DNA of 64,000 nt from Haloarcula sp. CBA1127 (GTDB lineage: Archaea; Halobacteriota; Halobacteria; Halobacteriales; Haloarculaceae): contig NZ_BCNB01000006.1 in the NCBI RefSeq assembly GCF_001485575.1, positions 620,001 through 684,000 on the forward strand, given 5' to 3'. The notes under the pieces are model-generated. The model saw nothing but the letters and a program-made list of their open reading frames with translations, was not told the origin of the DNA and did no database searches. Shown piece by piece: positions 5,273-54,637 of this stretch. Every line of letters begins with the position of its first letter. Position 1 is the first letter of the stretch. A program made the translations under genes and the position numbers.

Positions 5273-6652
5273 ATGGCTGACCTGCAACTCACCGACGACG
5301 TGCCGCCGGCTGCCGATGACGGCGTCTGGCTGGCCTGCATCGAGTGTGGTGAGACGTTTGCTCCCTTCGACGAGATTCGCTACACCTGCGACCACTGCGA
5401 CGGCCTGCTTGAGGTCCGCTACGACGACCTGCCGACCTTCGACGAGTTCGAGGGGTCGGGCGTCTGGCGGTACAATGCCGCCCTGCCCTTCGAGGAGGGC
5501 GTCACGCTCCCCGAGGGTGACACGCCGCTACACGAGATGCCTCGCCTGAAAGACGACATCGGTGTCGACGCGCTCCGCGTGAAACACGAGGGGATGAACC
5601 CCACCGGCTCGTTCAAGGACCGCGGCATGACCGTCGGTGTCCGGGTCGCTCAGGAAGTCGGCGTCGACCGACTGGCCTGTGCCTCGACGGGCAACACGTC
5701 CGCGGCGCTTGCAGCCTACGGCGCTCGCGGCGGAATGGAGACGCTCGTTCTCCTGCCCGCCGGGAAGGTCGCGGCTGGCAAAATCGCACAGGCAAGCCTC
5801 CACCGGGCCCGGATTCTGGAGGTTGACGGCAACTTCGACCAGTGTCTCGACATCGTGCAGGACCTCGCCGCCCGCGGCGAGGCCTACCTGCTGAACTCGC
5901 TGAACCCTTTCCGTCTGGAGGGCCAGAAGACTATCGGGCTGGAGATCATGGAGGAGTTCTACGCCGACAACGGCGAGTATCCGGACCGCATCGTCCTGCC
6001 GGTCGGCAACGCTGGCAACACCGCGGCGCTGTACAAGTGCTTCCGCGAACTCGTCAAGGCCGGCGCGATAACCGAGGAGCAGGTGCCCAAACTCACCGGT
6101 GTGCAGGCCGAGGGGGCCGCCCCGATGGTCGAAGCCATCGAGAACGGATACGAGGACACCCGCCGCTGGGAGGAGGTCGAGACCCGCGCGACCGCCATCC
6201 GCATCGGCAATCCGGTCAACGCGCCGAAGGCGCTGCCGGGCATCCGGGAGACCGGCGGCACCGCCGTTGCCGTCTCGGACGAGGAAATCACCGAGGCACA
6301 GCGCGACGTCGCCGGGGAAGGCGTCGGCGTCGAACCGGCATCCGCCGCCTCCGTCGCCGGCCTCCGGAAACTCCGGCGCGAAGGCGAAATCGATAGCGAC
6401 GAGTCGGTCGTCTGCCTGACCACGGGCCACCTGCTCAAAGACCCCGAAGCAGCCGCTGAGGCCGGGAACGAACCGGAGCCGGTCGCAAACAGCACCGAGG
6501 CCGTGCTGGACCTCATCGAGGAGCCATCGTCGGTCGCTCAGACGGTTCGGCGACAGGTATCGAAGGCCGCCGACGCGCCGCTGGTCCCGGCGCTGGTCGC
6601 CAGCGGTCTCGGTGTCGCGTATCTCTACCGCAAACTCCGCTCGAAGGAGTAA
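5273..6652 (+). CDS. thrC: threonine synthase
   Basis: PLP enzyme that converts O-phosphohomoserine to threonine. The N-terminal zinc-ribbon-like CIEC...CDHC precedes the PLP-lysine motif NPTGSFKDRGM, and the GNTSAALAAYGAR and GNAGN glycine loops follow. From ATG 5273 the product has 459 residues; ATG 5261 and TTG 5246 are also in frame, but MADLQL is the simplest start. The last ~45 residues form an unusual tail ending in a hydrophobic stretch (LVPALVASGLGVAYLYRKL) that is not part of the catalytic fold and might touch the membrane. Aspartate kinase of the same pathway lies 2.5 kb downstream. Confidence 0.95.
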   Translation: MADLQLTDDVPPAADDGVWLACIECGETFAPFDEIRYTCDHCDGLLEVRYDDLPTFDEFEGSGVWRYNAALPFEEGVTLPEGDTPLHEMPRLKDDIGVDALRVKHEGMNPTGSFKDRGMTVGVRVAQEVGVDRLACASTGNTSAALAAYGARGGMETLVLLPAGKVAAGKIAQASLHRARILEVDGNFDQCLDIVQDLAARGEAYLLNSLNPFRLEGQKTIGLEIMEEFYADNGEYPDRIVLPVGNAGNTAALYKCFRELVKAGAITEEQVPKLTGVQAEGAAPMVEAIENGYEDTRRWEEVETRATAIRIGNPVNAPKALPGIRETGGTAVAVSDEEITEAQRDVAGEGVGVEPASAASVAGLRKLRREGEIDSDESVVCLTTGHLLKDPEAAAEAGNEPEPVANSTEAVLDLIEEPSSVAQTVRRQVSKAADAPLVPALVASGLGVAYLYRKLRSKE

Positions 6653-45366: not shown

Positions 45367-46722
45367 CTAGTCCCCGTAGTCTCCGAGTTCGCACTCGGCG
45401 GCCGGGCCGCCGTCACAGTCGTATCCGACCGCTTTTGTAACCCTGAGCAGGTCATAAAACCGGCCGAGGGACTGCTCGGACTCGGGAAGCCCTTCGACCA
45501 CTGGTACGCCACGCTGGGCCTGATGGTCACAGCTCCGCATCGTCTGGCTGCCCAGCCCGACCGAGTATTCGTGGTCTTCCAGTTCACGGATAACCGCTGG
45601 CGGGTAGAACGTGCCAGCCCGCTCGACGGCCGCGGCGTACTGGAGCGTCTGTGCGTAGGCCAGATGGGCCACGCCGGAGGGTCGCTGTGCGTTCCCGTGC
45701 TCCGCGGTGAAGGCGTTCTTGAACGTATTGGAAAGGTCTGACGAGATGCTGGTATCCCACGCAACTGTCCCGACGACGCCGTCGAGTGCTTTCGAGGCGT
45801 TCTGCGCCACGATACGGTTGTACAGCGGCACCACAATCCCCACCTCGTCAGGGAGAATTTCCTGTGCCTTTGTCAGTGAGTTTGCGGCGTCAAGTCCGTA
45901 GTGGTCGAGGAAGACGACCTCCGCACCGGCGTCCCGGGCCTGTTTGAGCGGTTCCTCGTAGTTCGTCGTCCCGAGTCGCGTCGGGATGCTCGTGAGTTCG
46001 ACCCAGCCACTCGACGTGAAGAAATCACGGATTGACGACTCCATCGTTTGCCCCCAGTTGTAGTCCGCGTAGATCTGGACGTACTGGGCGTCCCGGCCGA
46101 ACCGTTCCTTGAGTACCGGAAGCAGCGCTTGTGCGGTCATGTACGCGTTGAACATCTCCCGGAAGCTGTAGCGGACACAGTCTGTCCCCGTCGTGTCGTT
46201 CGAGTGTGTCAGACAGCACATATACGGGACCTTCTGGGCCTGTGCGACCTCCTGTTGAGCGATGGCGACTGAACTGGATGAGCCGCCGGAAAACATGACG
46301 ACGTCGTCCTGCTCGATCATCTCCTTTGCATTGGCCGTCGCGACATCCGGCTTTGTCTCCGTGTCTGCAGTGACGTACTCGACAGTCTTTCCGAGCACGC
46401 CATCGCCGCTGAGTACGTCAAAGGAACCCTGTCCGACCCAGCCGCCGCCCTCGTTGAGGTGCGTGACAGCGAGCTCATACCCTCGAAGTTCGTCGCGCCC
46501 TTCGGCGGCGTAGGTCCCGGACTGTGGCACGTTGAAGCCGAGCGTGACCGCGTCGCCCTCGACCGGATAGTTCCCCAGCGGTGGGTGCTCCGGTGTGTTT
46601 TCGGCTCTCGATCCCCCGCCCTGGCACCCCGCCAGCCCAGCAAGCCCCGCGCTACCGACTCCACCGGCAATCTGTAGTACGGACCGCCTGTCAACTGCCT
46701 CTCCCCCTCTTTCCAATCCCAT
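45367..46722 (-). CDS. orphan ABC-type substrate-binding lipoprotein 1 (branched-chain amino acid/urea family)
   Basis: 451 residues. Tat lipoprotein signal: Arg12-Arg13 and lipobox with Cys33 (GLAGC). The periplasmic-binding type 1 domain follows (VTLGFNVPQSGTYAAEGRDELRG, GYELAVTHLNEGGG) of the LivJ/UrtA group. No permease or ATPase gene is nearby, which is unusual. A paralog is at 47580-48938 and a cheC-like gene lies between them, so a role as chemosensory binding protein (like BasB/CosB of Halobacterium) is plausible but inferred. Confidence 0.85.
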   Translation of the reverse strand: MGLERGGEAVDRRSVLQIAGGVGSAGLAGLAGCQGGGSRAENTPEHPPLGNYPVEGDAVTLGFNVPQSGTYAAEGRDELRGYELAVTHLNEGGGWVGQGSFDVLSGDGVLGKTVEYVTADTETKPDVATANAKEMIEQDDVVMFSGGSSSSVAIAQQEVAQAQKVPYMCCLTHSNDTTGTDCVRYSFREMFNAYMTAQALLPVLKERFGRDAQYVQIYADYNWGQTMESSIRDFFTSSGWVELTSIPTRLGTTNYEEPLKQARDAGAEVVFLDHYGLDAANSLTKAQEILPDEVGIVVPLYNRIVAQNASKALDGVVGTVAWDTSISSDLSNTFKNAFTAEHGNAQRPSGVAHLAYAQTLQYAAAVERAGTFYPPAVIRELEDHEYSVGLGSQTMRSCDHQAQRGVPVVEGLPESEQSLGRFYDLLRVTKAVGYDCDGGPAAECELGDYGD

Positions 46723-46894
46723 ACCAGCTGTTTTGATGATAAATATATATAATACTTATTTCAATAGAAATGGGTAACCAATTAGCATCGGCGGAGCTGG
46801 TATCGGGTGTCGACGGACTGCAGACTGTCCGATCGGCGATTAGATCTACTCTGGCCACGCGGTGAACAGGGTGTGCAGAGATAGCGTGCCGCTG

Positions 46895-47539
46895 TCAGTC
46901 AAGAATATCGCTGGCTTCGGTGTCTACCGCCACGTCGGTGTCGAGGTCGATATCCTGAATCAGCGCGACGAGGTCCTCCAGTTCGGGGAACGTGTACACG
47001 GTCATCCCGAGGTCGCCGTCGTCGACGGTGATACGCGAGTCAACGACGAACACCAGGTCGGAGTCCGGCCAGCCGCCCATCTCGTCGATGATGCCGTCGG
47101 CCGGCCCGAACACGAAGTTCGGTGTCCCCATGTCGATGGTCGTCTCCAGCACGTTGGCCCACCCGTCGATGAACGCGGAGGTCATGATGTTGCCGATCTC
47201 CTGCATCGCCGACCGTTCCATGTCGGAGAACCCTTCACCCTCGCTCGGTTCACCCATCCCGCCCATCATCGCGCTGGCCATCTGCTTGCTGTCCTCTGGT
47301 TCGAGCAGGAACAGGACGTAGCCGTAGGGCGGTTCGTTCAGTTCGACGTAGATGCCGACGCCCTTGTCGTCGCCGATGTGTGTTTTGACGTCTTCGATGT
47401 CGAGAAAATTGATCTGTGAGGTCCGAACTGTCGCGTCGAGCCCGGTCAACTGACCGAGGTTCTCCGCGACTGTCCCAGACCCCTCTTTTGCCATCTGATT
47501 GAAAAGGTCCAGCTTCCGCACGTCCACTTTCAAGCCCAT
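46895..47539 (-). CDS. CheC-like protein with one preserved phosphatase motif
   Basis: 214 residues. CheC family members dephosphorylate CheY and carry two E-x2-N motifs. The second is present here (QEIGNIMTSAFI, Glu114 and Asn117), while the first region (KEGSGTVAENLGQL, residues 18-30) lacks the Asn. The N-terminus MGLKVDVRKLDLFNQMA resembles archaeal CheC proteins. It lies between two binding-protein genes on the same strand, and no cheY, cheA or cheD is in the window. Confidence 0.82.
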   Translation of the reverse strand: MGLKVDVRKLDLFNQMAKEGSGTVAENLGQLTGLDATVRTSQINFLDIEDVKTHIGDDKGVGIYVELNEPPYGYVLFLLEPEDSKQMASAMMGGMGEPSEGEGFSDMERSAMQEIGNIMTSAFIDGWANVLETTIDMGTPNFVFGPADGIIDEMGGWPDSDLVFVVDSRITVDDGDLGMTVYTFPELEDLVALIQDIDLDTDVAVDTEASDILD

Positions 47540-47579
47540 ATCTTCTGGAACGTCGCAAGCGGCTTAACGCCACCGCCCG

Positions 47580-48938
47580 TCAGCTGCCGGCTGTCTCGGG
47601 TTCGTACGGCCCCAGGTCAGTACACTCGCTTGCCGGATACTCCTCACAGCCGTACCCGACGTCAGTCGAAATCTCGATGACGTCGAGTACTTCGGGACCC
47701 TGACTGGAGCCTTCGATGACGGGAACGGGCCCCATAGACTGGTGATCGCACGCCCGTAGCGTCGCCTCGCCGCGTCCGGCCTGGTACGTGGTGTCTTCGA
47801 GTTCACGGATGACGGCCGGCGGTTCGAACGTCCCGGCCCGCTCGACGGCCGCGGCGTACTGGAGCGTCTGCGCGTAGGCCAGTCGGGCCTGGTCCGACGG
47901 GACCCGGACCTCGTCGGCGGCATACGCCGCATCGAACGCTTCGGTAAACGCCGTTGAAAGCGGCGTATCGATACTGTAATCCCACGAAATGGTGCCGACG
48001 ATACCGGCCATGTCGGCGCCGACATCGCGGGCCAGTTGCCGACTCACGATCGGCATGACGATGTCCATTTCTTCCGGGACTATGTCCGTCGCTTGGTTCA
48101 GCGCGGTGACTGCGTCACGCCCACGGTAGGACAACACGATGGCGTCGACGTCAGCGTCCACGGCCTCCCGCAACTGCGGCCTAAAGTTCTCCGTTCCGAC
48201 CCGGGTCTTCGTCGCGCCCATCTCGCTCCAGTTCTCCGACTGGAACCGGCGCTTGAACTGCTCGGACTGTGTGAAGCCGAAATCGGAGCTGGCGTACAAC
48301 TGGTAGAACTCCGTTCGCCCGTCGAACCGCTCGGTCAATACCGGAACCAGCGCATTGGCGGCCATCCGACCGTTGTGCATTTCCTGAAATCCGTATCGAG
48401 AGCAGTCGATCCCCGTGACGTTCGTCCCCGGAGCGAACCCGAGCATGTGGATCACGCCGCGGGTCGGACAGTACTTGAGCAACTCCCGGGCTGTGTTCGT
48501 CGACCCGCCCCCGGCGACCATCACGGCACCGTCCTGCTCGACCAGCGTCTCCGCCACGTCCCGGGCCGTTTTCGAACTGGACTCCGTGTCGGCTATGACG
48601 CTCTCGACCGTCCGGCCGAGAATGCCGTCCCCGGACAGCGCCTGCCACGCGTCGGTGTCGACCCAGCCGCCGCCCTCGTTGAGGTGGTCGATGGCCAGCT
48701 CGAAGCCGCGCTGCTGGCCGGACCCAACCGGCGAGAACGATCCCGATTGCGGGACTGTGAGACCAATCGTCACTTGGTCGTCGTCGACCGGCTGGTTCGC
48801 GTACGCTGTGGCACTGCTTGTCGGCGTCGTGGCACGGCTGCCCCCGCCACAGCCGGCAAGTCCGGCGAGCGAACTCGCTCCGACGGCTGCGAGTAGCTCC
48901 CGTCGCGTCACTGTCGACCCCCGAGCATCCCAATCCAT
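47580..48938 (-). CDS. orphan ABC-type substrate-binding lipoprotein 2
   Basis: 452 residues from ATG 48938. Tat lipoprotein signal (TRREL, then LAGLAGC), Thr/Ala linker, and a LivJ/UrtA-type binding domain (VTIGLTVPQSGSFSPVGSGQ, FELAIDHLNEGGGW). The sequence is collinear with lipoprotein 1 (both have NEGGGW, DTE(T/S), and the same C-terminal YAQTLQYAAAVERAGTF), so they arose by duplication. No transporter partner. The frame upstream to 49043 is not part of the signal peptide and is excluded. Confidence 0.85.
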   Translation of the reverse strand: MDWDARGSTVTRRELLAAVGASSLAGLAGCGGGSRATTPTSSATAYANQPVDDDQVTIGLTVPQSGSFSPVGSGQQRGFELAIDHLNEGGGWVDTDAWQALSGDGILGRTVESVIADTESSSKTARDVAETLVEQDGAVMVAGGGSTNTARELLKYCPTRGVIHMLGFAPGTNVTGIDCSRYGFQEMHNGRMAANALVPVLTERFDGRTEFYQLYASSDFGFTQSEQFKRRFQSENWSEMGATKTRVGTENFRPQLREAVDADVDAIVLSYRGRDAVTALNQATDIVPEEMDIVMPIVSRQLARDVGADMAGIVGTISWDYSIDTPLSTAFTEAFDAAYAADEVRVPSDQARLAYAQTLQYAAAVERAGTFEPPAVIRELEDTTYQAGRGEATLRACDHQSMGPVPVIEGSSQGPEVLDVIEISTDVGYGCEEYPASECTDLGPYEPETAGS

Positions 48939-49058
48939 GGTGAAAAATATATTACTACTGCTGTAATTAAACCTTGCTTCATCGCTCAATAGGTCTCCAA
49001 ACCGATACGGGACGCTACTCACTGCTGTGATTGCCAGTCGCAAAAACAGACGCCGCCC

Positions 49059-49517
49059 TCAGGCGTCAGTTCCGTCGACCGGAAACTGCTCGTGTTCGCA
49101 CACCGTATTCAGCACGACTGACGTCGAGGCAGATCGGATGTCCTCGTCGGTCAGCAGCGTCTTTATCCGCTCGTTCATCGACTGCGTGTCGGTGAACTTC
49201 CCGACGGCCACGATGTCGTGGTCGCCGGTCACTTCGTAGACCGCGATCATCTCGCGTCGATCCCGTAACTGATCCACCACCCGTCCGAGCCCGTCGCCCT
49301 CGACGGAGAGCTGGAACACGGCGGTCACGTCGTAGCCCAGCGCCCCGTAATCGATGTCGACGGTGTATTCGTCGATCACACCGGTCGCCTCCAGGTCGTC
49401 TATCCGGCGCGACACCGTGGTCGCCGCGATGCCGGTCGCGGCGGCGACGTCACGGGCGCTGGCCCGGCCGTCCTGGAGCAGTGCGTTCACTACCTGCCTG
49501 TCGGTATCATCGACCAT
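49059..49517 (-). CDS. lrp: Lrp/AsnC-family transcriptional regulator
   Basis: 152 residues. N-terminal HTH (ASARDVAAATGIAATTVSRRIDDLE) and C-terminal RAM domain (VTAVFQLSVEGDG, VYEVTGDHDIVAVGKF) that binds amino acids. In haloarchaea Lrp-type regulators control glutamine synthetase and nitrogen genes. It lies 9 nt downstream of glnK in the same direction, so it probably is expressed with amtB-glnK and reads nitrogen status. Confidence 0.9.
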   Translation of the reverse strand: MVDDTDRQVVNALLQDGRASARDVAAATGIAATTVSRRIDDLEATGVIDEYTVDIDYGALGYDVTAVFQLSVEGDGLGRVVDQLRDRREMIAVYEVTGDHDIVAVGKFTDTQSMNERIKTLLTDEDIRSASTSVVLNTVCEHEQFPVDGTDA

Positions 49518-49526
49518 TTCGTCCGC

Positions 49527-49892
49527 TCAGACTGCCTCTGGGCCTTCTTTGCCGGTTCGGACCTGGTAGGCGTTGTCCACGGGGAGGACGAATATCTTGC
49601 CGTCACCTTTCTCGCCGGTGTGGGCACCGTCGGCGATGGCATCGACGACATCCTTTGCGGGGATGTCGGCGACCACTGTCTCGACTTTGACCTTCTGGTG
49701 CAGGTCGACGACGTACTCCTCGCCGCGCCACTGCCCCTTCTTTGCGGGCTGTGAGCCGCGGCCGGAGACGTTCGTCACTGTCAGCGAGGGCGCGCCGACC
49801 TCCGCCAGCGCCTTCTTCACATCGCCGAGTTTGTCCGGTCGAACCATTGCCACTACCATCTTGATTTCGGAGTCGTCGGTTTCGTCAGTCAT
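49527..49892 (-). CDS. glnK: PII nitrogen regulatory protein
   Basis: 121 residues. PII fold with T-loop [20 protein letters not shown] (Tyr of EEY at the usual modification position) and the B/C-loop [22 protein letters not shown]. It binds ATP/ADP and 2-oxoglutarate and blocks AmtB when nitrogen is ample. It overlaps amtB by 8 nt, the standard coupling. The N-terminal acidic extension MTDETDDSE is typical of halophiles. Confidence 0.95.
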
Positions 49893-51213
49893 CTTGGGAA
49901 CCTCCGTCAGTACGCATGCTCGGGCTCACTTTACCACCATCGGCGACGACGCTCTCGCCACCACCGAACTCGGGGTAGGTCTCGACGCCGTGTTCGCTGA
50001 CGTCCAGCCCTTCCTGCTCGTGCTCGGGCGTAACCCGGGCCTGACCGGCCAGTTTGAGTGCGTACCAGACGACCCCGGTTGCGACAATCGTCCAGCCCGC
50101 GATAGCGGCGACGCCGATAAGCTGTGCGATGAAGGCGTTGACGACCGACCCGACCGTGCCGGGCGTGGCGACGAACGGGAACAGCAGCGTGCCGAGCACA
50201 CCGGCGCTACCGTGGACCGGGAAGACAGCACAGACATCGTCGATTTTCATCCGGTTCTCGATGAAGCTGAACACGACCGGCAGCTGTCCGCCTGCGAGGG
50301 CACCGACGATGATTGCGCCCCACCACGTCGTGGTGTCGGGGATCGCCGTGATGCCGACCAGTCCGGCGAGCAGTCCGTTTGCCACGTACAGGGTGTCGAC
50401 CTTGCCGGTCTTCAGCCACGCGACCAGTCCGGCACCCATCGCACCACAGGCCATCGCGATAGTCGTCGTCATCGCGACACGGCCGACCGTCGCGAACGCG
50501 CCGAGGGCAAGCGATCCGTCCTCAACGACGAAGACAGTCGCCGCCGTCCCGACGTTGAAGCCGTACCAGCCGAACGCGAGGATGAGCGTTCCCAGAACGG
50601 CGAAGGTCAGGGAGTGGCCCGGAATGACGTTCGCGGAGCCGTCCTCGTTGTACCGACCCATGCGTGGGCCGAGGACGTACGCCGCCGTGAGGCCCGCGAT
50701 GCCGCCCATGCCGTGGACGATCATCCCGCCGGCGAAGTCGTGGAACGCCTCGCCGCCGAAGCTGATGTACGCGCCGGCCCACGTGATGCCGGTGACGACG
50801 GGGTAGATGACCGCCGCCAGCAGGAACGTGTACGTGATGTACGCGCGGAGCTTGGCTCGTCCGGCGACCGCACCGGAGACGATGGTCGCTGCCGTCATCG
50901 CGAAGACGGCACCGAACAGCCAGCCGACGTAGTCGTTTGCGGCCCCGGCACCGAAGGCGGGCGAGAAGCCGCTGCCGCCGACCAGCGCACTGATTCCTGA
51001 GCCGATCAGGAAGAACACCGTCACACCGACCGACCAGGTCAGGAGGTTCTTCGTTAGCTGGTTCGCGACGTTCTTCGAGCGCACCTGGCCCGCCTCAAGC
51101 ATGGCGAAGCCCGCGTGCATGAAGAAGATCAGGAACGATACCACCAGCACCCACAGCAGGTTAACCCCCTCTGCGAGTACGGTCGGATCTACTTGTAGTG
51201 CAGTGTAGCTCAT
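49885..51213 (-). CDS. amtB: ammonium transporter
   Basis: 442 residues with eleven membrane helices. The Amt signature segment is present ([25 protein letters not shown]), with the conserved histidine pair of the pore in helices 5 and 10 (HGMGG and VHGSAGVLG). GlnK plugs the cytoplasmic face. AmtB precedes glnK and lrp in this operon. An acidic Glu/His-rich tail ([15 protein letters not shown]) may contact GlnK. Confidence 0.95.
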
Positions 51214-51677
51214 TTCTAGTTCACCTGTTTCGTTTTGTTATCGGCTGCCGTCTGCATGTCCAACTTTGACCCACTTTGGCTCAACTTCTTCAACTCTTTC
51301 ACGAGAAAGGGTCTGGTAACAGCACTACATAAGGTTTGCCTTTATGAATACGGAAATTAGAGGGGATGTGGTAGACGACCGTCCAGATTATGGTATGATA
51401 TTATGGATATAAGGTTGTTCTCCGTAAAGAAAGTCCGTATATGCACACTGGAATTTTGGACGTTTGTCGACCCCGGTTCCGGCCGCAGGGGGCCAAATAG
51501 GCCGTTTTTGCTTGCGCGCGCTCTCGGCTGGCGGGTGTTGCCAGCGACAACAGGGTTATACCTCGCGACCACAGATTCGGATTTAGTATAAATGTCCGGA
51601 AAACAGTGGGGAGACGTGGCACAATGTGCCGATAAACTGTACAAGTCAATTATGCTTCGGAGGGTTCATAGCTGATT
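51214..51677. other. divergent promoter region between amtB and the transducer gene
   Basis: 464 bp with no supported gene. AT-rich stretches near 51390 and a GC-rich segment near 51480 (CCGCAGGGGGCC) are visible, plus ATTTAGTATAAATG near 51582 as a candidate TATA box for the transducer. I see no clear regulator repeat. A frame at 51403-51591 lacks any motif. Confidence 0.45.
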
Positions 51678-53288
51678 ATGGCTTCGGACCACTATCCCTC
51701 CGTTCCGGACCAGTCGACGGCCGTGACAGAGGAACGCGCAGTCGCGAACGCACAGGGCGCACTCGATGTCGTTCAGGCGGCGTCGGTGACTGTTGGCGAG
51801 CAGCTCGCGGCAATTGACGACCGTGCAACGGCACAGGCAACCGACGCACAGTGGATCGCCGACGAGGTGTCGTCGCTTTCAGCCACAATCGAGGAGATCG
51901 CTGCGACCGCAACCGAGGTCAGCGAGCAGAGCCAGCGGGCAACGGACGCGGCAAACGACGGGCGGGAAGCGGCGGCTGACGCCATCGAGTCGATGGACGA
52001 GGTCCGCGAACTGGGCCAGGCGGTCGCCACAGAGGTGGCCGCCCTGCAGGATCAGGTCGACCGTATCGCCGATGCACTGGCCGGCATCGACCGCATCGCC
52101 GACCAGACGAACATGCTCGCACTGAACGCCTCGATAGAGGCGGCGCGAGCGAGCGACACCACCGATACGGACGGGTTCGCTGTCGTTGCAGACGAAATCA
52201 AGGGGCTCGCTGAGGAATCACAGCAGCAGGCTGAAGAAATCGATACGACGCTGACGGCGGTTCGGGAAGCGACAGACGACACCGTTGCACAACTCGATGA
52301 CGCTATCGACGGCATCGACACCGGGGCCGAGCAGGTCACCACGGCGATGGCTCGGCTTGACGACGTAGCCGACACTGTTGCGGAAACGGCCGACGGCATC
52401 GCCTCCGTCTCGGCGGCGACCGACGAACAGGCGACGACAAGCGAAGCGGTCGCCCAGCGGTGTGAAACGGTGTCTGACCGCGCCGCTGCTATTGAAGACG
52501 ACCTCTCTGAGATACGTGCCGCCCGCTCCGAGCAGACCGCGATGCTCGACGAGATTGACGACGTACTCGCCGCTGCAGAGGCCGACCGGCAGGACCGGCT
52601 GGCGGACGCGCCGACAGTCCCGACCGGTATCGACGGCCTCGACGACCTCTGTGGCGGCGGCCTCGTCATGGGCGGTCAGGCAGTGATCCGGTCCACCGAC
52701 GAAACGCAGGTCGACGGTGCCGTTGCCCAACTGTGTGCGACGGCCGTCGCCGCCGGCCGGGCGGTCTCGCTGACGCCACCACCATCCCTCGACCGGTCGA
52801 CGCTTGCCGCCGCGTTCGCAGCAACCGACTACTCGCTCGAAGACGCGCTTGATGACGACGTCCTGTTTATTCTCGATATGTTCGGACACTGGGACGCGCG
52901 GTACAACGTGTTCGGCCTCGACCGGACTTCGCTCGGTGCTGCCAACGAGACGACGGCGACCAGACGGGACACCCCGCTGGTTATCGTCGGGAACATTCAA
53001 GGAGAAATACAGTTGATGGGCGAACAGGCTGCAAGAGAGGCCCGGTACGAGAACGACGACGGCGTCTTCAAACCCCACGACACAGTGGTCAACGTCATCG
53101 ACGACGACGCGGTCCCGGCCACGCTTGCGGCGTTCTACTCGGGCGCTGCCGATCAGGAACTCACGCTAACACAGACTGACGGCCGCGAGTACCTGACGCT
53201 TACGGCCTCGCCGCGTGGCACCGTGGGCGAGAAACAGCCAGTATCACAACTTTCGGGCCCACCCTTCCTCCGAATCAGAGACAACTGA
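51678..53288 (+). CDS. soluble methyl-accepting transducer fused to a KaiC/RecA-like domain
   Basis: 536 residues with no membrane segment. Residues about 1-300 are an MCP signalling coiled coil, with the hairpin tip IDRIADQTNMLALNASIEAARA and GFAVVADEIKGLAEES near 135-175; the turn between EAARA and GFAVVA is two residues longer than usual (SDTTDTD). Residues about 312-536 begin VPTGIDGLDDLCGGGL, the opening of KaiC/RecA-like ATPases, but the Walker A that should follow is absent (GGQAVIRSTDETQ). The C-terminal half thus probably senses rather than hydrolyses. It overlaps the histidine kinase gene by 1 nt. Confidence 0.85.
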   Translation: MASDHYPSVPDQSTAVTEERAVANAQGALDVVQAASVTVGEQLAAIDDRATAQATDAQWIADEVSSLSATIEEIAATATEVSEQSQRATDAANDGREAAADAIESMDEVRELGQAVATEVAALQDQVDRIADALAGIDRIADQTNMLALNASIEAARASDTTDTDGFAVVADEIKGLAEESQQQAEEIDTTLTAVREATDDTVAQLDDAIDGIDTGAEQVTTAMARLDDVADTVAETADGIASVSAATDEQATTSEAVAQRCETVSDRAAAIEDDLSEIRAARSEQTAMLDEIDDVLAAAEADRQDRLADAPTVPTGIDGLDDLCGGGLVMGGQAVIRSTDETQVDGAVAQLCATAVAAGRAVSLTPPPSLDRSTLAAAFAATDYSLEDALDDDVLFILDMFGHWDARYNVFGLDRTSLGAANETTATRRDTPLVIVGNIQGEIQLMGEQAAREARYENDDGVFKPHDTVVNVIDDDAVPATLAAFYSGAADQELTLTQTDGREYLTLTASPRGTVGEKQPVSQLSGPPFLRIRDN

Positions 53289-54637
53289 TGTTCGGTCTCG
53301 ATGACACTGGTCGGCTCACGTTTGCGACGAACGAGTTCGCTGCACTGCTCGACCGAACACCTGCCGAACTTGTCGGCACACCCGTCGAAGCGCTGGTCAC
53401 AGCCGAGGACCGCGAGACACTGACCGCGGCCAGACAGGCCGTCAGCAGTGCCTCGGACCGGATGACACGGACCTGCCAGGTCACACTCCCGCAAAGCGAC
53501 CGCTCTCGTCCGGTTACGCTCGAGCTCACGGCCACAGACGACGGCTCCGTCGTCGGCTCGCTCTGCCGAACGACCGAGATGGCCGACCCGTTCCAGTACC
53601 TGTTCGACCTCATCCAGGATGCGGTCGTCGGCTTCGAAATCGTCAATTTCGTCCCGGTTGTGCGAACGGTCAACCCCGCGTTCGTCGAGACCTTCGGGTA
53701 CGACCGCGAGGAAATCGTCGGTGAACCCCTCAACGAGCACATTGTTCCCGGCGACCGCGTCGAAGAGGCGGTCAACTACGACCAGCGGACGGCCGCTGGG
53801 GAAGTCAACTACGCCGTCGTTTCCCGGAAAACAGCCGACGGCTGCCGCGAGTTCATCTATCGCGGCGTCCCGTACGACACGGCCGACGGCCGCCGCTGTG
53901 GCTTCGCGATGTACACGGATGTGACGGACAGCCGGCGGCAAAAGCGACGGCTCCGTGTTCTCCATCGCGTCCTGCGACACAATCTCCGGAACGAGCTTTC
54001 TGTCATGTTCGGGACGTCCGAATACGTTCGTGCCAACGCAGCCGACTCGTCCGTCTCGTTGGCCGCGTCCCGCGCACTCGACGCGGCTGACCGCCTCGCC
54101 GCCGTCAGCGAGAAGGCACGGAGCGTCGAAACTGCGCTCGACGGGGACGCCGACCAGTCGGTCGACGCAGCGGCACTGGCCCGGTCTGTCGCTGATAGCT
54201 ATCGCCCCGGTACGCCGGTCGAAACGGCACTCCCGAGCACACTCCCTGTCACTGGTGGGACGGCCGTCTACGACGCCATTGACAATCTCGTCGAGAACTC
54301 GGTCGAACACACACCGCCGGGTACGGCCGTCCGAATCATAGCCGAACAGGCCAACGGCGACGCGTTCGTCCGTGTTCTCGATGACGGCCCCGGTATTCCC
54401 GCCATCGAGCGGGCCGTCGTGTTCGATGACGAGGACATCACGAACCTCCAGCACGGGAGCGGCCTCGGTATCTGGCTCGCCCGATGGGTCGCCGAGACGG
54501 CCGGCGGTGGCATCGAGTACGACCGAGCCGACGGGTGGACGACCGTCTCACTCCGGTTCCCACTGTCCGACGCCGATACCGAGGACGTGCTTACGGTGGT
54601 CGATGCCCCAGAATCAGCGGCTGAGCCGACGCGGTAG
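53288..54637 (+). CDS. PAS-PAS sensor histidine kinase
   Basis: 449 residues. An N-terminal PAS-like domain (DTGRLTFATNEFAALLDRTPAEL), a second PAS (about 100-220, VVRTVNPAFVETFGYDREEIVG), then the HisKA-type helix with the phosphoacceptor in LRHNLRNELS near 231 and the ATPase boxes: N-box DNLVENSVEHTPP, G1 DDGPGIP and G2 GSGLGIWLA. No membrane segments, so it is cytoplasmic. The start codon overlaps the transducer stop (TGATG), which links it to the soluble transducer. No response regulator adjoins. Confidence 0.9.
   Translation: MFGLDDTGRLTFATNEFAALLDRTPAELVGTPVEALVTAEDRETLTAARQAVSSASDRMTRTCQVTLPQSDRSRPVTLELTATDDGSVVGSLCRTTEMADPFQYLFDLIQDAVVGFEIVNFVPVVRTVNPAFVETFGYDREEIVGEPLNEHIVPGDRVEEAVNYDQRTAAGEVNYAVVSRKTADGCREFIYRGVPYDTADGRRCGFAMYTDVTDSRRQKRRLRVLHRVLRHNLRNELSVMFGTSEYVRANAADSSVSLAASRALDAADRLAAVSEKARSVETALDGDADQSVDAAALARSVADSYRPGTPVETALPSTLPVTGGTAVYDAIDNLVENSVEHTPPGTAVRIIAEQANGDAFVRVLDDGPGIPAIERAVVFDDEDITNLQHGSGLGIWLARWVAETAGGGIEYDRADGWTTVSLRFPLSDADTEDVLTVVDAPESAAEPTR

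Follow-up and report, generated by a model that had tools for sequence, protein, structure and literature searches.

The window, a stretch of 64,000 nucleotides (positions 620001 to 684000 of contig C6) from a haloarchaeal genome assembly of 4.36 Mb in 9 contigs, the closest named matches being Haloarcula species (90 to 95% identity), carries on its forward strand two overlapping genes. The first, P0001 (51678 to 53288, + strand), codes for a protein of 536 amino acids consisting of an MCP signalling hairpin (residues 12-308; 51711 to 52601, + strand), supported by an AF2 model, Pfam and an alignment with Htrs, followed by an inactivated KaiC-like domain (residues 309-536; 52602 to 53285, + strand), supported by sequence and profile comparison. 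The second, P0002 (53288 to 54637, + strand), codes for a cytoplasmic PAS-PAS histidine kinase of 449 amino acids with PAS and HATPase_c matches. A sequence-only reading of this DNA had described a soluble MCP with its signalling domain first and a 1-nt overlap with the kinase gene, and both descriptions were borne out. Residues 83-266 of P0001 match MCPsignal (PF00015) with an E value of 9e-34 and 117 bits (cut-off 34.6), no transmembrane segment is apparent in the protein (highest 19-residue Kyte-Doolittle mean, 1.32), and P0002 starts at the last base of the P0001 stop codon (TGATG). The AF2 model of the whole of P0001, built with 8 close sequences (pTM 0.32), shows two helices (residues 12-158 and 164-308) and then an alpha/beta domain; pLDDT is mostly 60 to 85 over the hairpin and the C-terminal part is weak.

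Alignment of the hairpin with two membrane Htrs of the same genome gave 40% identity and required 2 and 4 gap positions, respectively. Two gap positions fall at the tip of the hairpin (residues 144-173; 52107 to 52196, + strand), where P0001 carries a 2-residue insertion. The tip of an MCP hairpin is the expected contact region for CheA and CheW, and its pattern, written as a regular expression, was matched in 36 of 40 loci coding for the same fusion, the other 4 being without a match. Two candidate methylation sites, SATIEEIAAT (residues 68-77; 51879 to 51908, + strand) and AATDEQATTS (residues 246-255; 52413 to 52442, + strand), were picked up by a scan with the methylation consensus, and the MCP part of each of the 40 loci contains at least one match. 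CheW homologues are present in the genome. As a candidate role, P0001 would bind CheW and CheA and control CheA activity; that the hairpin aligns with so few gaps to membrane Htrs also fits with its mixing with other receptors. Conceivably, the MCP part could instead belong to an array without control over swimming, the output being gene regulation via the kinase only, since a soluble MCP is here encoded together with a kinase and no taxis gene lies directly beside it on the same strand. We find this very doubtful given the candidate methylation sites, the good alignment of the hairpin with other Htrs of the genome, and the presence of a cheA/cheB region in addition to the CheW homologues.

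In an MCP hairpin, the N and C termini are found together at one end of the bundle, and an input domain at the C terminus is therefore geometrically equal to one at the N terminus. The haloarchaeal soluble transducers HemAT and Car are soluble Htrs that feed the Che system, as we propose for P0001. To our knowledge, neither the input domains of HemAT, where it is N-terminal, and Car, nor the C-terminal part of Helicobacter TlpD, are KaiC-like. The domain order of P0001, described beforehand as the reverse of that of common MCPs, is indeed unusual, though not unprecedented in view of cytoplasmic bacterial receptors such as TlpD: in this protein, likewise a soluble MCP, the region C-terminal to the hairpin is reported to be important for function (PMC13001251).

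The assignment of the second domain to the KaiC/RecA-like proteins also held. Directly, residues 309-536 match the KaiC chain 8zn7 (phmmer, E 1.3e-4), the Pfam KaiC model gives E 0.22 on P0001, short of the cut-off, and a profile of the domain (A2) matches KaiC with E 4.6e-6. When 34 fused domains were compared by hhalign with the second halves of 31 haloarchaeal two-domain (tandem) KaiCs, the probability was 100 and the E value 5.1e-45 over 227 columns, and the profile of these second halves matches KaiC in the PDB with E 7e-14. On this sequence evidence, residues 309-536 can be regarded as a confirmed KaiC-family homologue, the strong support running through the tandem-KaiC relatives, and the possibility that the domain is not KaiC-like was rejected on these profile comparisons (E 4.6e-6, 7e-14 and 5.1e-45). 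The AF2 model of the domain alone (pLDDT 51) shows an alternating beta-alpha order. A Foldseek search with this model returned a methyltransferase in the top row (E 0.013), followed by KaiC and RecA-family proteins, none of them below 0.001; after realignment, almost all of the structure matches listed belonged to the KaiC/RecA family, the best Z score for this low-confidence model being 7.1, in the middling, non-specific range. Membership of the receptor in the MEDS proteins (PF14417) was discarded, as 4 of 34 members gave weak matches (best E 0.0081) and the domain of the window itself gave none.

The loss of the ATP loop, also put forward from the sequence, was found throughout the family, as none of the 40 MCP-fused domains has a Walker A motif. 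At the position of the P-loop, opposite GGPGTGKS of the active halves, P0001 reads STDETQVD (residues 339-346; 52692 to 52715, + strand). The loss is not specific to the receptor, however: Walker A is present in all 35 first halves of the tandem KaiCs and in none of their 38 second halves, which indicates that the ATP site was lost before the fusion to the MCP and led us to reject the fusion as the cause of that loss. In the alignment-dependent column of the catalytic acidic residue after strand 2, the 35 first halves all carry E or D. Of the 40 fused domains, 39 have P, A, S, R or T in that column and the remaining one has E. Among 34 fused domains with 43 to 91% identity to the first sequence, 25 columns, many of them polar, are invariant. 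Part of these are, in P0001 numbering (domain position + 308), W405, N410, N423, R430, G438, E443, G448, E449, R453, N459, D460, D468, N472, F486 and Y487. At such levels of divergence, this number of invariant columns argues that the fused KaiC-like domain holds a site that stayed under constraint once it had been captured.

In order to place the fusion, we searched the class Halobacteria and found relatives of the C-terminal domain in 85 of 391 genomes. The matches were mainly of two kinds, namely MCP fusions and two-domain KaiCs, the latter mostly of about 460 to 570 residues with the active KaiC half first and the relative of the C-terminal domain second. The fused type, counted from matches with at least 39% identity across most of the domain, occurs in about 45 of the 391 genomes, and BLAST confirmed its MCP part in 40 loci, each from a different genome. 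In a midpoint-rooted tree of 113 domains, the 40 MCP-fused domains all fall into one clade (support 1.0) that lies among the second halves; a separate clade comprises the 35 first halves. The recovery of the same architecture in 40 loci of one clade rules out chance. The two-domain KaiCs resemble P0001 in that the homology of their second half with residues 309-536 spans its whole length, and differ from it in that their first half is an active-type ATPase rather than an MCP hairpin. As the fused domains form one clade and the domain is C-terminal in both kinds of protein, the simplest explanation would be a single swap, whereby the active KaiC half was most simply replaced once by an MCP hairpin. 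Outside the order, a phylum-wide profile search, run irrespective of MCP content, returned no more than short matches to the N-terminal motif of KaiC, and viral contigs contained no relative.

The kinase gene accompanies the receptor in part of this family. P0002 contains a HATPase_c domain (PF02518, E 1.5e-15) at residues 326-427 (54263 to 54568, + strand) and gave no HisKA match in Pfam; by eye, the segment HRVLRHNLRN is a candidate haloarchaeal H-box on the phosphoacceptor helix. The conservation of the gene pair, proposed as a check on the idea of a single receptor-kinase complex, was found in part: a related kinase follows in tandem in 23 of the 40 loci, is adjacent in another orientation in 3 (divergent in L047 and L048, convergent in L057), and is absent from 14. 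Whether the adjacent kinase is the true partner in the three rearranged loci is uncertain. The adjacent kinases (n = 27, of which 26 from the 40-locus set plus that of L053) all fall into one clade (support 0.99), apart from 19 paralogues of the P0001 genome and 2 other kinases. The tandem kinase was the best match to P0002 of its genome in all 7 genomes checked (G040, G161, G274, G268, G168, G117 and G089). In G035 a non-adjacent kinase surpasses the adjacent one as a match to P0002 (225.9 vs 190.3 bits); the second-best match is close behind in G067 and G099.

The kinase-less loci are concentrated in a sub-clade whose receptors are devoid of the conserved C-terminal tail: the kinase is missing from all 12 of its loci, which make up 12 of the 14. 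This co-occurrence hints that the tail of the C-terminal domain and the kinase belong together, although their absence may go back to one event. In G083 the receptor and the kinase are both missing between flanking proteins that are 89 to 99% identical, a joint loss indicating that the pair moves as a unit. In G367, an intact kinase (55% identity) directly follows a short in-frame remnant of the receptor. This remnant (L187, about 5836-6120; a frame of ~109 residues) comprises only the start and the end of the protein. The kinase of G367, together with the 14 loci where the receptor has no kinase, indicates that receptor and kinase can work apart. A single receptor-kinase complex, which had been considered likely from the gene overlap, thus need not be obligate.

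Links between KaiC proteins and the motility system were seen elsewhere in the P0001 genome, where an active single-domain KaiC is encoded directly behind cheW and beside cheB and cheA (L167:6415-7663). The same arrangement of cheW and KaiC occurs in G016. At L169:1259-4228 of the P0001 genome, a two-domain KaiC in which each half has an intact Walker A motif is directly followed by a PAS histidine kinase. In Haloferax, motility is reported to be affected by the KaiC homologue CirA (PMC13286277), and cirA is reported to be located among flagellar genes (PMC3941300). Taken with the joint absence of tail and kinase in one sub-clade, these four lines (cheW-KaiC, tandem KaiC-kinase, CirA and tail) would suit a receptor in which the dead KaiC domain serves chiefly for docking or assembly rather than for ligand sensing. 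It would bind the kinase or an active KaiC, such as the single-domain one encoded beside cheW, and the receptor would act as an adaptor between KaiC hubs and CheA. However, the adjacency of cheW and this KaiC was found in just 2 of its 17 loci examined with 1.5-kb flanks (in a third, a cheW-like frame lies on the opposite strand), and we regard this explanation as tentative and somewhat unlikely. A more speculative arrangement, which we consider highly improbable, starts from the six MCP chains of a trimer of dimers, a number equal to the stoichiometry of a KaiC hexamer; these chains might gather six dead KaiC domains into a KaiC-type ring within the arrays, docking on hubs and kinase. If true, KaiC timing or energy state would steer taxis and transcription together.

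The components of the receptor have known counterparts. KaiC proteins paired with a partner histidine kinase are known from the cyanobacterial KaiC-SasA system, and the Foldseek matches listed include 6x61, a complex with the N-terminal domain of SasA. In P0001, by contrast, the KaiC domain is joined to an MCP and has no motif for ATP binding, and the kinase has PAS domains. Inactivated KaiC (iKaiC) domains are known in archaeal signalling from the work of Galperin et al. 2018 (PMC5847659), and P0001 resembles the iKaiC proteins described in the available part of that paper in that a degenerate KaiC-family domain is fused to, or encoded with, two-component parts. The partners named there are REC, PAS and HalOD1 (in combinations such as iKaiC-REC, REC-DUF835 and MEDS), and no MCP-iKaiC protein appears in that part (PMC5847659); our comparison with the iKaiC set is limited to proteins outside the haloarchaeal arCOG02452 group. 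No paper describing an MCP-KaiC fusion was found in the literature searched, to which the main 2017 survey of KaiC hubs did not belong. Since iKaiC domains and cytoplasmic receptors are each already known, what would be new, judging from the sequences, is the combination of the former with an MCP, and we do not claim its absence from print.

Overall, the reading that we prefer, with a probability of about one half, is that P0001 is a cytoplasmic chemoreceptor which uses a dead KaiC domain to read an internal state and has two outputs, via CheA and via the coupled kinase. In this scheme, a methylatable MCP hairpin would have taken the position of the active half that comes first in haloarchaeal two-domain KaiCs, with the catalytically dead second half being retained as the C-terminal input domain. 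That domain would no longer hydrolyse ATP; rather, its constrained surface would bind a small ligand or a partner protein that reports the internal state, and binding would shift the hairpin. As regards taxis, we infer that the hairpin resides in CheA/CheW arrays alongside the membrane transducers and adapts via methylation. The translationally coupled, soluble PAS kinase may dock on the KaiC-like domain or share the input of the receptor, and would add a slower second output by way of a response regulator. In this way, as the overlap of the two genes suggests, a single cue from inside the cell could act on swimming as well as on gene regulation. KaiC-like proteins are proposed signalling hubs of archaea; in P0001, the second half of such a hub-type protein has been incorporated into a chemoreceptor, an architecture shared by a clade of at least 40 loci, many with a coupled kinase. 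Haloarcula offers a genetically accessible system for asking whether KaiC-type domains steer swimming, with natural controls in species without the kinase, with the kinase and a receptor remnant, or with neither gene.

In the Haloarcula lineage, the state sensed by such a chemoreceptor may be nitrogen status. As had been noted from the sequence, P0001 is divergent from an amtB-glnK operon, amtB (49885 to 51213, - strand) being the only amt gene of the genome and glnK (PII) lying at 49527 to 49892 (- strand). A gene for an Lrp/AsnC-type regulator (49059 to 49517, - strand) and one for a CheC-like protein (46895 to 47539, - strand; PF04509, E 3e-11) belong to the same neighbourhood, together with genes for two binding proteins and, further upstream of the receptor, for a member of the nitrite/sulphite reductase family. 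The amtB linkage is shared by 17 of the 40 loci, which span more than one genus and extend down to about 51% identity of the C-terminal domain. All this would agree with a nitrogen-taxis receptor whose C-terminal domain directly reads GlnK/PII, AmtB or the 2-oxoglutarate/ATP state. Nevertheless, the 17 loci are of one family, none of the loci from other families shows the linkage, and several loci of the same family are without it as well. Moreover, hemB and other neighbourhood genes are likewise conserved in the amtB-linked family, so that the linkage may be plain synteny, and G083 has kept the amt operon without receptor and kinase. We therefore consider direct nitrogen sensing of this kind unlikely. 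The limitation to one family means that PII or Amt, suggested earlier as possible inputs, is no general ligand, and GlnK/Amt was rejected as a general partner for the same reason; the nitrogen link is a lead for Haloarcula and not a property of the whole receptor family.

The region between amtB and the receptor contains a highly conserved block (51390-51440), with its core at 51393 to 51414 (no strand assigned). An exact match to the 22-base core occurs in 36 of 189 loci (many being copies of the same place), and 15 of the 25 genomes of the genus each have one match to a 20-base core; the intergenic region gave no Rfam match. The block persists in G083 after the loss of receptor and kinase; it is thus probably not part of the receptor unit, and we rejected it as a receptor element. 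It is a candidate regulatory element or small RNA on the amtB side. On that side, the CheC-like gene sits between two genes for periplasmic binding proteins (window 45367-49043).
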